IMG/VR virus record: IMGVR_UViG_3300010354_000067
Span: 1-64,000 of that record
DNA length: 64,000 nucleotides
Direction: 5' to 3' (one strand)
Source of the DNA: a virus
The position numbers were made by a program, and so were the translations under genes. Positions within the stretch are counted from its first letter, which is position 1, and each line of letters begins with the position of its first letter. This document shows positions 5,806 through 10,821 of the stretch, one piece after another. The notes below the pieces were generated by a model. That model was not told the origin of the DNA. It ran no database searches and saw nothing but the letters and a program-made list of their open reading frames with translations.

Positions 5806-5816
5806 TCTGCTATAAT
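5789..5816 (+). promoter_or_regulatory. Promoter giving a leaderless transcript for the pre-portal gene
   Basis: TTGATA, 16-nt spacer and TATAAT preceded by TGC. Exactly 6 nt separate the -10 from ATG 5823, so the start codon should be at or next to the transcription start. Confidence 0.65.
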
Positions 5817-5822
5817 TTAACC

Positions 5823-6191
5823 ATGAGCAATACAAGAAAGCCAAAAATTGGCAAGTCTAAGGCCACAGTCATTCATAAGAACTCCGACTGGGGACTTTAC
5901 TTCTGGAAACTTCCAAGTGGACACCTTTTTCATGACGGACAAGGAAACCTCCTTAATATTCCCGCAATGAAGCACGACCTCGCCAAGATTGCAGAACTTA
6001 GAAAGGCTGCTGCCCATTATGGACAACCAGAAGGAACCCCATGGTTTTATCCTGGAATTAAGAGAGCATCTGAAGAAACATATTCTGAGCAGGTAGATAG
6101 AATGAAGAATGGTCTAATTCCTAACCTTAATGATATGGGAGCCGTATACGATGCTCAGCAAACTCTAAGAAAGTATGGCGACGAAGGATGA
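5823..6191 (+). CDS. Small basic protein of unknown function upstream of portal
   Basis: A 122-residue protein with a basic N-terminus (TRKPKIGKSK) and a central FWKLPSGHLFHDGQGN segment. I do not recognise the family. There is no Shine-Dalgarno site: the promoter -10 ends 6 nt before the ATG, predicting leaderless translation. The stop overlaps the portal ATG (GATGACAG), so the two are translationally coupled. The position suggests a role in head assembly or packaging, but nothing in the sequence shows it. Confidence 0.75.
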   Translation: MSNTRKPKIGKSKATVIHKNSDWGLYFWKLPSGHLFHDGQGNLLNIPAMKHDLAKIAELRKAAAHYGQPEGTPWFYPGIKRASEETYSEQVDRMKNGLIPNLNDMGAVYDAQQTLRKYGDEG

Positions 6192-7831
6192 CAGAAAGAC
6201 AAGAAATTGTCATCAGATACTCTGATGAAATTGATGCAGAAAATGAATTTTCTTCACAAGATCCATTTAATAAATCTTGGGAGGAAATCAAGGATATGCG
6301 TGGGCTAAATGTCAATTTCAAAAGAAGAACAAGTCGTGCAGAAAATAAGATAGAGAAGGCAATTTCTAATATTCCTACAAATAGGATGGGCCAAGTTACT
6401 GGAGTATATGCTCAGACTGCTCATGTAAGAGCCTCTGGAATTGACAATACTGAATCAAAGCAGTTAAACCCAGGAGAAGTTTTTAGAAATGGTTACGGTG
6501 TTTTTGATGTAATTACTCCACCATACAACCTATATGAACTTGCTAGTTTTTATGATACAAACTTTGCGAATCACGCAGCCATTGATGCCAAGGTAGCAAA
6601 TACCGTTGGCCTTGGATATTATTTTGATACTGCTCCAGACGTTGTTATGCGAATGGAAAACATGGAAAACGAAAGCGCCATGCTCAAGGCTAAGAGAAGG
6701 CTAGAGCGTATCAAGGGTGACGCAATGGAATGGCTAGAAAGCCTTAATGACGAAGATAGTTTTCTTACAACTATGGAAAAGATTTATACAGACCTAGAAT
6801 CCACAGGCAATGGATACATGGAGGTTGGAAGAACTGTAACAGGTGAAATTGGCTATATTGGTCACATTCCATCAACAACAATGAGAGTAAGAAGAATTCG
6901 TGATGGATTTACTCAAATTGTTGCTGGACAGATTGTATACTTCAGAAATTTTGGTGCTACAAATCCAAATCCAATTACAGATGACCCAAGACCTAATGAG
7001 GTTATTCATTTCAAGGCATATTCACCTTTGAATACCTTCTATGGAGTTCCTGATATTCTTTCTGCATATCTTTCTCTCAAGGGAGATCAGTTGGCATCTC
7101 AGTTTAATATTGATTACTTTGAAAATAAGGCTGTTCCTCGTTATATTGTTGTGGTCAAGGGCGCTAGACTTGATCGTGAGTCAGAGGACAGACTCTTTAG
7201 ATTCTTGCAGACAGGTCTTAAGGGACAGAATCATAGAACACTTTATGTTCCACTTCCAGCAGACTCTGAAGGAAATAAGATTGAGTTTGAGATGAAGCCA
7301 ATTGAGGCTAATGTTCAAGAAGCCTCGTTTGAAAAGTATCACCAAAAGAATCGTGATGATATTCTTATGGCACATCAAGTTCCGCTATCTAAGTTGGGTG
7401 GTGTTGATACAGGCGGCTTGGCTGCTGCTTTGGCACAGGATCGCACATTTAAGGAGCAGGTAACTCGTCCAGCACAACGTTATGTAGAAAAGATGGTAAA
7501 TAAGATTGTAAAGACAAAAACTGATCTTATTAACCTTAAGTTTAAGGAACTTACTCTAACAGACGAAGTTGCACAGTCTCAAATCTTTGAAAGATATGTC
7601 AAGACGCAAATTATGACACCAGATGAGGCTAGGGAGAAGTTGGGTATGCCCTCAAGACCAGATGGTGATGGAAATGCTCCGTTCTCTATGAGTCCAAGGC
7701 AGGCAACAGATGCTCGTGCCAATCTTGCACAGAACAGAGAGCGAGATTCAGAAAGGACCAACAATGCGTCTGATAGTGTCGCTACCACAAATGGAAGAAA
7801 CCCTCAAGGTGAGGGAAGAAGGACACAGTAA
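6188..7831 (+). CDS. Portal protein
   Basis: A 547-residue protein that would form the dodecameric ring through which DNA enters the head and to which the tail attaches. Recognised from the LYELASFYDTNFANHAAIDAK start of the core, the conserved YMEVGR and IVYFRNFG segments around residues 210-255, EVIHFKAYSPLNTFYGVPD around 275-290, and a C-terminal helical region with QVPLSKLGGVDTGGLAAA, which is typical of HK97/SPP1-family portals in actinophages. It is followed by the maturation protease and capsid genes in the usual order. The C-terminal 60 residues are polar and low complexity. Confidence 0.9.
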   Translation: MTERQEIVIRYSDEIDAENEFSSQDPFNKSWEEIKDMRGLNVNFKRRTSRAENKIEKAISNIPTNRMGQVTGVYAQTAHVRASGIDNTESKQLNPGEVFRNGYGVFDVITPPYNLYELASFYDTNFANHAAIDAKVANTVGLGYYFDTAPDVVMRMENMENESAMLKAKRRLERIKGDAMEWLESLNDEDSFLTTMEKIYTDLESTGNGYMEVGRTVTGEIGYIGHIPSTTMRVRRIRDGFTQIVAGQIVYFRNFGATNPNPITDDPRPNEVIHFKAYSPLNTFYGVPDILSAYLSLKGDQLASQFNIDYFENKAVPRYIVVVKGARLDRESEDRLFRFLQTGLKGQNHRTLYVPLPADSEGNKIEFEMKPIEANVQEASFEKYHQKNRDDILMAHQVPLSKLGGVDTGGLAAALAQDRTFKEQVTRPAQRYVEKMVNKIVKTKTDLINLKFKELTLTDEVAQSQIFERYVKTQIMTPDEAREKLGMPSRPDGDGNAPFSMSPRQATDARANLAQNRERDSERTNNASDSVATTNGRNPQGEGRRTQ

Positions 7832-7851
7832 CAATTTGATAAAATTGTTGG

Positions 7852-7857
7852 TATAAT
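7852..7857 (+). promoter_or_regulatory. Extended -10 promoter at the protease gene start
   Basis: TGG followed by TATAAT directly abuts ATG 7858. A transcript starting 6-7 nt downstream would begin just before the second in-frame ATG at 7867. Confidence 0.5.
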
Positions 7858-9147
7858 ATGAATAGTATGGATATTTGTAAGGCGCACTGGGTGTCTGATG
7901 GGAACAATCTCCGTCTTTCAATGCCAATAGCCAAAGTAGACAAAGAGCGAAGAATGGTTTCAGGATTCGCTACTCTTGATAATATTGATCGTCAGGGAGA
8001 CATTGTTCCATCTGATGCTAGTGTTAAGGCTTTCGAAAAATTCCGTGGCAACATTAGAGAAATGCACGATGAGAAGAAGGCCGTAGGAAAACTCGTATCA
8101 TTTAAGGAAGATTCTTTCTTTGATCAGGAATCAGGAAAGATCTACAAGGGTGTTTTTGTATCTGCTTATGTAAGCAAGGGCGCTCAGGATACATGGGAAA
8201 AGGTTCTTGATGGAACACTTACAGGCTTTTCAATCGGTGGCAGCGTAAAAGATTATGAAGATACATATGATGAAAAAATGGATAAGTCAATTAGAATTAT
8301 TAAAGAATATGATCTTTTTGAACTATCACTAGTTGATAATCCTGCCAACCAATACGCAAATGTCATTAGCATTGAAAAGGGTCATACTGGAGGGTATCTT
8401 TCTAAGGCTCTCATTGAGAACGTATTTTGGTGCAGTGAGGACGATATCGTTCAACTATCTGCTGGTAGCACATCAGACTGCCCACGATGCGACAAGGGTA
8501 TGAATAACATTGGTTTCGTAGAAACTAGTGACGCAGAAAAGGCAGAGGTAGTAAAGTCTCTTCTTTCTACTATTAAAAATGATGTAAAGGAGGTAAGCAA
8601 GATGAACGAAGAAACAATTGAGACAGCCTCCACAGAAGAAGCAGCAGAAACTGTTGTAGAAGAAACTGTAGAAAAGGCTGTTGAATCAGAAGTAGAAAAG
8701 TCTGATGTTGATGTTGAAAAGGCCGTAGTCGAAGAAGAAACAGTTCCTGAGGCTGGTACGGCAGATGAGACAGAAGCAGAATCCATGGACGAAGAGGACG
8801 ACATGGAGGATAAGGCAATGAGTGCTGGCGGCAAGGGTTATGATGATGAACTCAAGCCAACAAAGGCTCTTGCCGATGAGATGAATTCTGCTTTCAACGC
8901 TCTTGCTGACACCATTAAGGCTCTTAATGAGAAGATTGAAGAACTCAACAAGACTGTTACAGGTGTTAAGCAGGAAGTTGATACAGTAAAGAATGAGTTT
9001 GGAAAGCGCGTAGATGCTGTGGAAAAGGATACCGCTTTCCGTAAGTCTGGCGATCTTGGCGAGGTCGTGCAGGAGCCAATTTTCGAAAAGGCTCAAAAAT
9101 CACTATGGGGCGGTCGTTTCCTCACAAAGTCCGACCTATTTGCATAA
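7858..9147 (+). CDS. Capsid maturation protease with C-terminal scaffold domain
   Basis: A 429-residue protein. Residues about 20-170 are an S78-type (HK97) prohead protease: VSGFATLDNIDRQGD, a probable catalytic His in REMHDEKK, the Ser in GTLTGFSIGG, and ELSLVDNPANQ. Around 185-220 there is a small Cys cluster (WCSEDD, CPRC). From about 245 the protein becomes a Glu/Val/Thr-rich low-complexity stretch and then a coiled coil ending in a basic tail, as in scaffolding proteins. Neither ATG 7858 nor ATG 7867 has a ribosome site; 7867 fits the promoter better. A strong internal start lies at 8602 (see the nested gene). The major capsid gene follows, as expected. Confidence 0.87.
   Translation: MNSMDICKAHWVSDGNNLRLSMPIAKVDKERRMVSGFATLDNIDRQGDIVPSDASVKAFEKFRGNIREMHDEKKAVGKLVSFKEDSFFDQESGKIYKGVFVSAYVSKGAQDTWEKVLDGTLTGFSIGGSVKDYEDTYDEKMDKSIRIIKEYDLFELSLVDNPANQYANVISIEKGHTGGYLSKALIENVFWCSEDDIVQLSAGSTSDCPRCDKGMNNIGFVETSDAEKAEVVKSLLSTIKNDVKEVSKMNEETIETASTEEAAETVVEETVEKAVESEVEKSDVDVEKAVVEEETVPEAGTADETEAESMDEEDDMEDKAMSAGGKGYDDELKPTKALADEMNSAFNALADTIKALNEKIEELNKTVTGVKQEVDTVKNEFGKRVDAVEKDTAFRKSGDLGEVVQEPIFEKAQKSLWGGRFLTKSDLFA
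8602..9147 (+). CDS. Nested in-frame scaffold protein
   Basis: Inside the protease gene, AAAGGAGGT at 8587-8595 lies 6-8 nt before ATG 8602, which is in the same frame. This is a near-perfect anti-Shine-Dalgarno match in the middle of a coding region. Translation from it gives a 181-residue acidic protein: a Glu/Val-rich N-terminal half, a coiled coil (ALNEKIEELNKTVTGVKQEV) and a basic C-terminus ending in KSDLFA. That is the make-up of a scaffolding protein that binds capsid subunits. The arrangement matches lambda gpC/gpNu3, where a protease and scaffold share a C-terminus. Expression of the short form is inferred. Confidence 0.7.
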   Translation: MNEETIETASTEEAAETVVEETVEKAVESEVEKSDVDVEKAVVEEETVPEAGTADETEAESMDEEDDMEDKAMSAGGKGYDDELKPTKALADEMNSAFNALADTIKALNEKIEELNKTVTGVKQEVDTVKNEFGKRVDAVEKDTAFRKSGDLGEVVQEPIFEKAQKSLWGGRFLTKSDLFA

Positions 9148-9178
9148 AATACTAAAAGAAAAACGGAGGTGAAATACA

Positions 9179-10282
9179 ATGTCTGAAGAAATTTTGAAGA
9201 ACCAGCCCAGCGAGACAGGCGAATATGGCGATCCTAACCCAGGTCTATATCAGGGTCAGGGTGCATTCGCTGCTGGTGGAATTGGTACTGTAACAGACCC
9301 CGCCGCTGGCGTATTGGGAAACATCCCAACAGCCAACTACGGAGATACCACAGGCCCAAACGCCGTTAACCCAACAGGTGTTGCTTCAGGTCTACTCAAT
9401 CCTGAGCAGGCTCGTCGCTTCATCGATTATGTTTGGGACGCAACAGTTCTCGCTAACGATGGTCGTCGTGTAACCATGCGTGCAAACACCATGGAAATCG
9501 AAAAGGTCAACGTTGGAGAGCGTGTTATTCGTGCAGCAGCCCAGGCTCTTGGTGAGTACACCAATGCTGGCGCTACCTTCACAAAGGTTGAACTTACAAC
9601 CAAGAAGATTCGCCTTGACTGGGAAGTTTCAACAGAGGCATTGGAGGATAACATCGAAGGTGGTGCTCTTGAGGATCATCTCGTTCGTTTGATGACAAAT
9701 GCTTTTGCAAACGATATCGAAGATTTGGCTATTAATGGCGATGGAGGTGCTGATCCATTCCTTGGAATCATGGACGGTTTCGTCAACCAGGTAACAACTG
9801 GTGGCGACGCTCATGAGGCAGTCGTTACTGTTACAGGTAACGAGTGGACTCCAGAGGTAATGCAGCAGATCATTTACGCTTTGCCACGCAAGTACCGCGC
9901 ACTAAAGAGTGGCCTGAAGTTCTATGCAGGCACAGACACATTCGCAGGAATCGTTGCTAGCAACGGTACTCTTGCTGATGCTGTTTACACATTCGGCGCA
10001 CGCGATACCTACCTTTCTGGTGCAGACCAGACCCTTGGTAATGCTCGCGTAACTCGCGTTCTCGGTATTCCAGTTCTAGAAGTTCCTTACTACCCTGCTG
10101 ATTATGTCGATTTGACATTCCCACAGAACCGTGTATGGGGCTTCCAGCGCGATATCACAGTTAACCGTGAGTACAAGCCAAAGAAGGACACAATCGAATA
10201 CACAGTATTCGTTCGCTTTGGTATCACTTGGGAAGAACTAGACGCAGTTGCTTACGCAGATGCTGGTGCAGATCCTTCCTGA
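9179..10282 (+). CDS. Major capsid protein (HK97 fold)
   Basis: A 367-residue shell protein. After a Gly/Asn-rich N-terminal arm (about residues 1-60) come LLNPEQARRFIDYVWDATVLAND, TMEIEKVNVGERVIRAAAQ, a spine-helix region with DHLVRLMTNAFANDIEDLAING and the P-loop-like LGIPVLEVPYYP, then NREYKPKKDTIEYTVFVRFGI. This pattern is typical of actinophage HK97-fold capsids. A strong ribosome site (GGAGGTG) precedes ATG 9179. Codons here end in C more often than in neighbouring genes, as expected for the most highly expressed protein. It is followed by a terminator hairpin. Confidence 0.92.
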   Translation: MSEEILKNQPSETGEYGDPNPGLYQGQGAFAAGGIGTVTDPAAGVLGNIPTANYGDTTGPNAVNPTGVASGLLNPEQARRFIDYVWDATVLANDGRRVTMRANTMEIEKVNVGERVIRAAAQALGEYTNAGATFTKVELTTKKIRLDWEVSTEALEDNIEGGALEDHLVRLMTNAFANDIEDLAINGDGGADPFLGIMDGFVNQVTTGGDAHEAVVTVTGNEWTPEVMQQIIYALPRKYRALKSGLKFYAGTDTFAGIVASNGTLADAVYTFGARDTYLSGADQTLGNARVTRVLGIPVLEVPYYPADYVDLTFPQNRVWGFQRDITVNREYKPKKDTIEYTVFVRFGITWEELDAVAYADAGADPS

Positions 10283-10305
10283 TAACTAAATAACCACATG
10301 TTTGT

Positions 10306-10332
10306 GGGGGGCTGGCCTTAAACCAGTCCCCC
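10306..10332 (+). terminator. Hairpin terminator after the capsid gene
   Basis: A 10-bp stem (one G-U pair) with loop CCTTAAA: the GGGGGGCTGG arm pairs with CCAGTCCCCC. No U tract follows. Confidence 0.65.
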
Positions 10333-10344
10333 TCAAGCATATTC

Positions 10345-10353
10345 TGATATAAT
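10345..10353 (+). promoter_or_regulatory. Extended -10 promoter behind the capsid terminator
   Basis: TGA then TATAAT, 13 nt after the stem. The leader carries GAGGAAAGG before ATG 10378. Confidence 0.6.
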
Positions 10354-10377
10354 TACAATGAGGAAAGGTTAATAACT

Positions 10378-10821
10378 ATGTCGGATTTTTCTACAATGAC
10401 GGTCGCTCAACTTAAATCATATGCAGATGATAATGATATTGACTTGGGAGATGCAAAGAGAAAGTCAGAGATTCTTGGAATTATTAATGGATTTACTGTA
10501 AAGGTAGAAGAGCAGAAGATTATCGGATCAGATAAGATTGTTACAGAAAAGAGAATCCCAAAGTCTGCAACAAAGGCAGATGAAAATGGAATTATGACAA
10601 CAGCAACTGCTGATAATTTTAAGGATAAGACTTTTTCAAAGTCTGAGCCAGATAATTCAAAGACAGCAATTCATTCAGAAAAGAACCTTCACTGGAATGG
10701 CGTTGGATCTTTAAAGAAGGGTTACAATATTGTTACAAAGGAGGTAGCCGAAAAGTGGCTTACTCGCAGGGGTATTCGTCAAGCAACTCCTGAAGAAGTA
10801 GCGTCATATTACGGTCTATAA
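10378..10821 (+). CDS. Head-tail region protein with SAP/Rho-N-like N-terminus
   Basis: 147 residues. Residues 5-38 (TVAQLKSYADDNDIDLGDAK then RKSEILGIING) resemble the short two-helix SAP or Rho-N fold that often binds nucleic acid. A polar middle follows, then a C-terminal segment (GYNIVTKEVAEKWLTRRGIR) that resembles the end of actinophage head-tail joining proteins. It sits between capsid and connector genes, so a role at the head-tail interface is inferred from position. It ends one base before the next ATG. Confidence 0.6.
   Translation: MSDFSTMTVAQLKSYADDNDIDLGDAKRKSEILGIINGFTVKVEEQKIIGSDKIVTEKRIPKSATKADENGIMTTATADNFKDKTFSKSEPDNSKTAIHSEKNLHWNGVGSLKKGYNIVTKEVAEKWLTRRGIRQATPEEVASYYGL

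Follow-up and report, generated by a model that had tools for sequence, protein, structure and literature searches.

The stretch of viral DNA analysed here (the window, 64,000 nucleotides) is part of a 74,049-base virus record, from a large phage of the actinobacterial type, and contains, between the portal gene (6188-7831) and the gene of the major capsid protein (9179-10282), a single open reading frame (ORF) at 7858-9147. It encodes a prohead protease and continues in frame beyond the protease domain; at the end of this domain lies a second, in-frame ATG behind a Shine-Dalgarno sequence (SD). The conserved start of the full-length protein is probably ATG 7867 (MDICKAHW) rather than ATG 7858. 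The features of the locus are:

7852..7857, + strand: TATAAT, putative -10 element; its last T adjoins ATG 7858, and it lies 9 nt before ATG 7867
7858..9147, + strand: full-length ORF of the prohead protease and putative scaffold, 429 aa; phrog_9427 head maturation protease, E 1.8e-119
7885..8592, + strand: folded protease domain, residues about 10-245 (AlphaFold; matches to T4 gp21 and herpesvirus proteases)
8586..8594, + strand: internal SD AAAGGAGGT, dG -13.4 kcal/mol; conserved at the nucleotide level in relatives
8602..9147, + strand: nested ORF of the putative scaffold, 181 aa; start ATG 8602-8604, residue 249 (MNEETIE...)
8602..8853, + strand: acidic disordered segment, residues 249-332; pLDDT under 50 throughout
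8854..9048, + strand: long helix, probable coiled coil, residues 333-397 (AlphaFold secondary structure)
9082..9141, + strand: conserved C-terminal tail KSLWGGRFLTKSDLF (alignment A1) with two short helices; candidate capsid-binding tail
9165..9172, + strand: SD of the major capsid protein gene GGAGGTGA, dG -15.4, stronger than at any other start of the window
9179..10282, + strand: major capsid protein, HK97 fold family; Pfam Phage_capsid E 1.3e-10, phrog_1623

Protease fold, domain boundary and putative nested product

Searching Pfam with the protease ORF yielded Peptidase_S78 (36 bits, cut-off 21) and Peptidase_S78_2, i.e. XkdF (34.6 bits, cut-off 24), but nothing from S49, with matches up to E 1 considered. 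AlphaFold models residues of about 10-165 and 187-245 of the whole ORF as folded, residues 242-332 as disordered and 333-397 as a single long helix; the pLDDT of the protease domain is about 60-84 over most of its length, with a low stretch at 164-184. Foldseek alone found no significant match of the 429-residue model in the PDB; applied to the Foldseek candidates, VIA-align recovered T4 gp21 as the top match (Z 12.6, 133 residues, rmsd 3.1), followed by a series of herpesvirus assemblins (Z about 5-7; those of VZV, pseudorabies, HCMV and HSV-2 at Z 5.6-7.0). Two residues, H70 and S125, are invariant in 37 sequences, and by analogy with HK97 gp4 we take them to be candidate catalytic residues. 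By these family and fold matches, the protease belongs to the S78/XkdF family with the T4 gp21/herpesvirus assemblin fold and is not lambda gpC-like. In a subgroup of relatives (L011, L012, L014, L027, L034, L035 and similar loci) the protease ORFs comprise about 520-550 residues, with roughly 80-100 residues more than in the window before the internal start.

The break between fold and disorder falls at residues 242-249. A sequence-only reading of this DNA had placed the internal start where the protein changes from protease to acidic and coiled-coil sequence, and the model agrees with it, the fold ending at about residue 245 and the new Met being residue 249. Beginning directly beyond the protease domain, the nested product lacks H70 and S125. 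Asp and Glu make up 28% of the whole nested product, and the helices of its tail (residues 409-417 and 424-428) are modelled with low confidence. Pfam and PHROG searches with the window's nested product gave no clear scaffold-family match; those of the phages Weasels2 and Wofford match scaffolding PHROGs weakly (3.5e-6 and 8e-4), which may reflect their coiled-coil composition. By eye, VEKS/VEKA-like repeats can be found in the acidic arm encoded by the window's nested ORF (8602-9147) and by related ones, as well as in a separate gene of the staphylococcal Kayvirus; they could be candidate cleavage sites of the protease.

Scaffold function is proposed from position, composition and weak family matches, so a rival reading has to be weighed in which the free product is real but has another main role, such as that of an internal core or decoration protein, and the capsid protein acts as its own scaffold. 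The capsid proteins of HK97 and T5 have a scaffold domain of their own (PMC3185693). We nevertheless consider this unlikely: the nested ORF lies directly before the capsid gene and encodes an acidic coiled coil with a conserved C-terminal tail, in distant phages this slot is taken by a gene of its own, and no helix is predicted for residues 1-74 of the capsid protein, albeit in a model so poor (pLDDT 31) that it leaves room for a scaffolding delta domain there.

The internal start and its conservation

Duplex energies were computed against the 3' end of the 16S rRNA, for which a Streptomyces-type tail was used. The sequence-only reading had claimed an SD before an in-frame ATG at 8602 inside the protease gene, better than the ribosome sites of most genes; indeed, AAAGGAGGT precedes this ATG with a spacer of 7 nt, and its energy is equalled or beaten by only 3 of the 71 called genes. 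It also ranks first among 543 in-frame internal ATG, GTG and TTG sites of the window. The ORF's own upstream start is essentially without an SD (dG -2.9). However, when the codons of the window sequence were shuffled synonymously, an equal or stronger internal site arose in 523 of 3000 shuffles (about 17%), because the peptide VKEVSKM nearly dictates the SD, which therefore is not improbable on a single sequence. The case for the internal site is one of comparative data and not of the window alone.

Relatives were gathered with protease and capsid protein as queries, giving 83 metagenomic loci, to which 7 isolates were added; 87 contain the homologous ORF. One pattern of the protease search (KMNEETIE) overlaps the site and yielded 3 loci, the remaining 80 being found via the capsid protein. 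The junction is covered by 76 metagenomic sequences including the window (L002 is 100% identical to it), and removal of sequences over 90% identical left 54 representatives; as all share ancestry, the following counts are not independent events. An in-frame ATG occupies the same alignment column in 76/76, and 7-9 nt upstream of it every sequence has AAGGAGG or something very similar, the weakest SDs (L073 and L045) still reading AAGGAG and GGAGG. The conservation that the sequence-only reading had named as a check was thus found in every relative covering the site, and the attempted refutation failed.

Codon usage separates the nucleotides from the residues. Among the representatives, the codon of E245 is GAG in all 54, and that of K244 is AAG in all 51 which have Lys, compared to usages in these genes of 34% for GAG and 60% for AAG. 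Where Glu or Arg takes the place of K244, the third base still is G; the residue after E245 varies between V, E, D, A and G (once N), and the first base of its codon is G in 53/54. Synonymous variation is absent from 15 of the 295 tested columns, those of K244 and E245 among them. Judged from these alignments, the internal SD is under selection on its nucleotides and not on the protein alone. In one clade (L078:3303-3434 and 28 related loci, alignment A5) the 50 nt before the internal SD are almost wobble-invariant as well. A hairpin considered there in the 29 sequences (99.5% paired, two nested helices) stayed within the range of the shuffles (142/500), and no convincing hairpin was seen upstream of the SD in the window's own clade.

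When the first 25 kb of the window were compared with phage records at the DNA level, none matched, and the comparison is therefore based on protein matches. Among isolated phages it comprises 13 of 9 genera with Streptomyces hosts (Karimacvirus, Tomasvirus, Samistivirus, Annadreamyvirus, Wilnyevirus, Wakandavirus, Gilsonvirus) and Rhodococcus hosts (Weaselvirus, Trinavirus). Their junction peptides differ from that of the window (EGGAEQ-V, KGGAEQ-M, EGGVI-V, GGQPN-M), and all 13 encode the SD in another codon register, followed by an in-frame ATG or GTG. In each of them this junction is the strongest internal site of the protease gene (dG -12.9 to -16.7 kcal/mol), the protease's own start reaching only -1.3 to -5.2. 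In codon shuffles of five isolates, an internal site as good as the real one came up in 0-2.3% of shuffles for four of them and in 13.9% for the fifth. We regard the re-registered SD of the isolates as better evidence of sustained selection than the metagenomic counts. All 13 annotations give a single CDS, leaving the nested product unannotated; no paper that describes an internal start or a scaffold for these phages turned up in a search of open-access full texts, and in a 2026 survey of Rhodococcus phages a scaffolding protein is named a single time, for Cluster CA.

Other explanations of the site fare poorly against these data. A ribosome pause that aids the folding of the protease, rather than initiation, would suit an SD sitting exactly at the domain boundary, but a pause needs no start codon, whereas ATG or GTG stands at SD spacing in every relative and shifts together with the SD when the register changes; we hold it to be very improbable. 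Still a little less probable is an SD-like sequence arising as an unused by-product of the conserved residues K-E-V: the 17% of shuffles that regenerate an equal site would allow it for the window alone, but it is strongly contradicted already by GAG in 54/54 and AAG in 51/51, by the G retained through the residue swaps (K to E or R; V/E/D/A/G), and by isolates keeping SD and start codon with other residues in another register. Least credible is a free scaffold released by self-cleavage of the fusion at the junction, with the internal start being minor. Cleavage of scaffolds by prohead proteases is known (PMC7411985), but this reading would leave the nucleotide-level conservation of the SD and the conserved start codon unexplained.

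The upstream start and the transcript

Of 48 representatives, 44 have TATAAT near the 5' end of the protease gene, most often with 9-10 nt between it and the start, and the A-rich stretch preceding it is conserved, too; no clear -35 box was seen upstream of it in the representatives. Most of them lack an SD at the protease start (median dG of the own start -3.5). Leaderless genes, of which Actinobacteria have many, are marked by a TA-like -10 signal about 10-12 bp before the start and by the absence of an SD (PMC3160421). The first T of TATAAT at -15 or -16 in most relatives lies slightly beyond the published leaderless peak. These features suggest that the full-length protease start is leaderless or nearly so, and from the spacing of TATAAT a leader of about 0-3 nt is expected. 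In the Streptomyces isolates TATAAT is mostly absent, and the protease start lies near the preceding gene or overlaps it.

We also weighed whether the scaffold has a promoter of its own within the ORF; the ORF contains no TATAAT, other promoter types being possible. As the window contains TATAAT neither inside the protease ORF nor before the capsid gene, one transcript could carry all three starts, a weak one for the protease, a strong one for the scaffold and the strongest for the capsid protein, and this order would fit the expected stoichiometry.

TATAAT boxes are also found in many short intergenic gaps of the window (for example at 2121, 5811, 10348, 14247, 14977, 30346, 44963 and 53356), with 49 on the + strand compared to 17 on the - strand. 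Two of these boxes, at 5811 and 53356, lie 6 nt before a start codon, and other genes may be leaderless as well.

The last ~100 nt of the ORF contain two conserved hairpins in the coding RNA (9046-9073 and 9105-9139 in the window). Over 26 relatives 99.3% of cells are paired, and covariation exceeds that of all 500 shuffles. The loop of the second hairpin carries an invariant UUUCCUC, and the first one is kept in the Streptomyces isolates, including a compensatory swap of G-C to C-G. No Rfam match was obtained for positions 7700-10400 of the window.

A proposed two-product gene and its known counterparts

With a probability of roughly 83%, we propose that ORF 7858-9147 is a two-product gene, yielding a protease-scaffold fusion and, from 8602, a free scaffold driven by the internal SD. 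Initiation at the upstream ATG (7867 or 7858), probably on an almost leader-free mRNA transcribed from the TATAAT at 7852, would provide a scarce fusion, and AAAGGAGGT would drive initiation at ATG 8602, providing a larger amount of free scaffold, which would consist of the acidic disordered arm, the long coiled coil and the conserved C-terminal tail. Both products have this tail, so the scaffold part would bring the protease into the procapsid, where it would cleave the scaffold before or during DNA packaging. More tentatively, and at slightly less than even odds, a leaderless start for the scarce fusion and an SD start for the abundant scaffold would fix the stoichiometry of the two, making the gene a phage counterpart of herpesvirus UL26/UL26.5 with a homologous protease fold, the hairpins possibly contributing some fine-tuning.

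The sequence-only reading had likened the locus to lambda gpC/Nu3. The likeness holds for the logic, one frame giving a fusion and a free scaffold, but not for the protein family, which here is S78/XkdF with the gp21/herpesvirus fold; the lambda gpC protease is an S49-type enzyme. As in lambda C/Nu3, an in-frame internal start with an SD would give the C-terminal product (here proposed from sequence), whereas the upstream start, unlike that of lambda, is apparently leaderless. The lambda overlap is attributed to Shaw and Murialdo (1980, as cited in PMC8508860). For the Mu-like Pseudomonas phage PaMx73, the start was inferred from sequence and lies at a Val codon; Mu and PaMx73 are of a different phage lineage from the one studied here. 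The Mu protease also belongs to a different family from the present protease. The same nested logic is used by the protease and scaffold of Mu (PMC4378225).

Closer relatives are the phrog_9427 proteases of Stanwilliamsviridae (Wofford, NootNoot, BillNye and others) and of the Rhodococcus genera Weaselvirus and Trinavirus, which are homologues of the full-length protein and have the internal site in 13 of the 13 examined, differing from the window by the codon register of the SD and, in several, by a GTG start. Staphylococcus Kayvirus, Vibrio V-YDF132, Stenotrophomonas DLP5 and Rhizobium L338C show the same order of protease, a protein of 319-408 residues and major capsid protein, but with two separate reading frames instead of the one fused frame found here. 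The strongly acidic product of the separate Kayvirus gene in this slot has a weak match to a scaffold PHROG.

The nested logic is already known from lambda, Mu and herpesviruses; our search of the open-access literature found no report of a nested protease/scaffold in phages with the gp21/assemblin fold. A so far unannotated gene, the putative free scaffold, would thereby be added to a widespread group of large actinobacterial phages, whose capsid protein is matched by 127 Streptomyces and 9 Rhodococcus records as well as many metagenomic contigs. As several carriers are culturable, the idea of a ratio set by two starts is directly testable, including the combination of leaderless and SD starts in one frame.

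The closest known arrangement with the same fold is that of herpesvirus UL26/UL26.5. Both combine an N-terminal protease of the assemblin fold with a C-terminal scaffold and an in-frame nested free scaffold (the scaffolds being putative in the phage), and in both the C-terminus is common to fusion and scaffold, the tail being conserved in the phages. The herpesvirus nested scaffold is made from its own shorter transcript; here, by contrast, an SD lies inside the ORF and no TATAAT-type promoter does, and the putative free scaffold apparently is of translational origin, for which the strength of this internal ribosome site argues. In HSV-1 the scaffold binds the capsid through its C-terminus (PMC12005531). 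A nested protease/scaffold with the gp21/assemblin fold would thus link capsid assembly in phages with that of herpesviruses.
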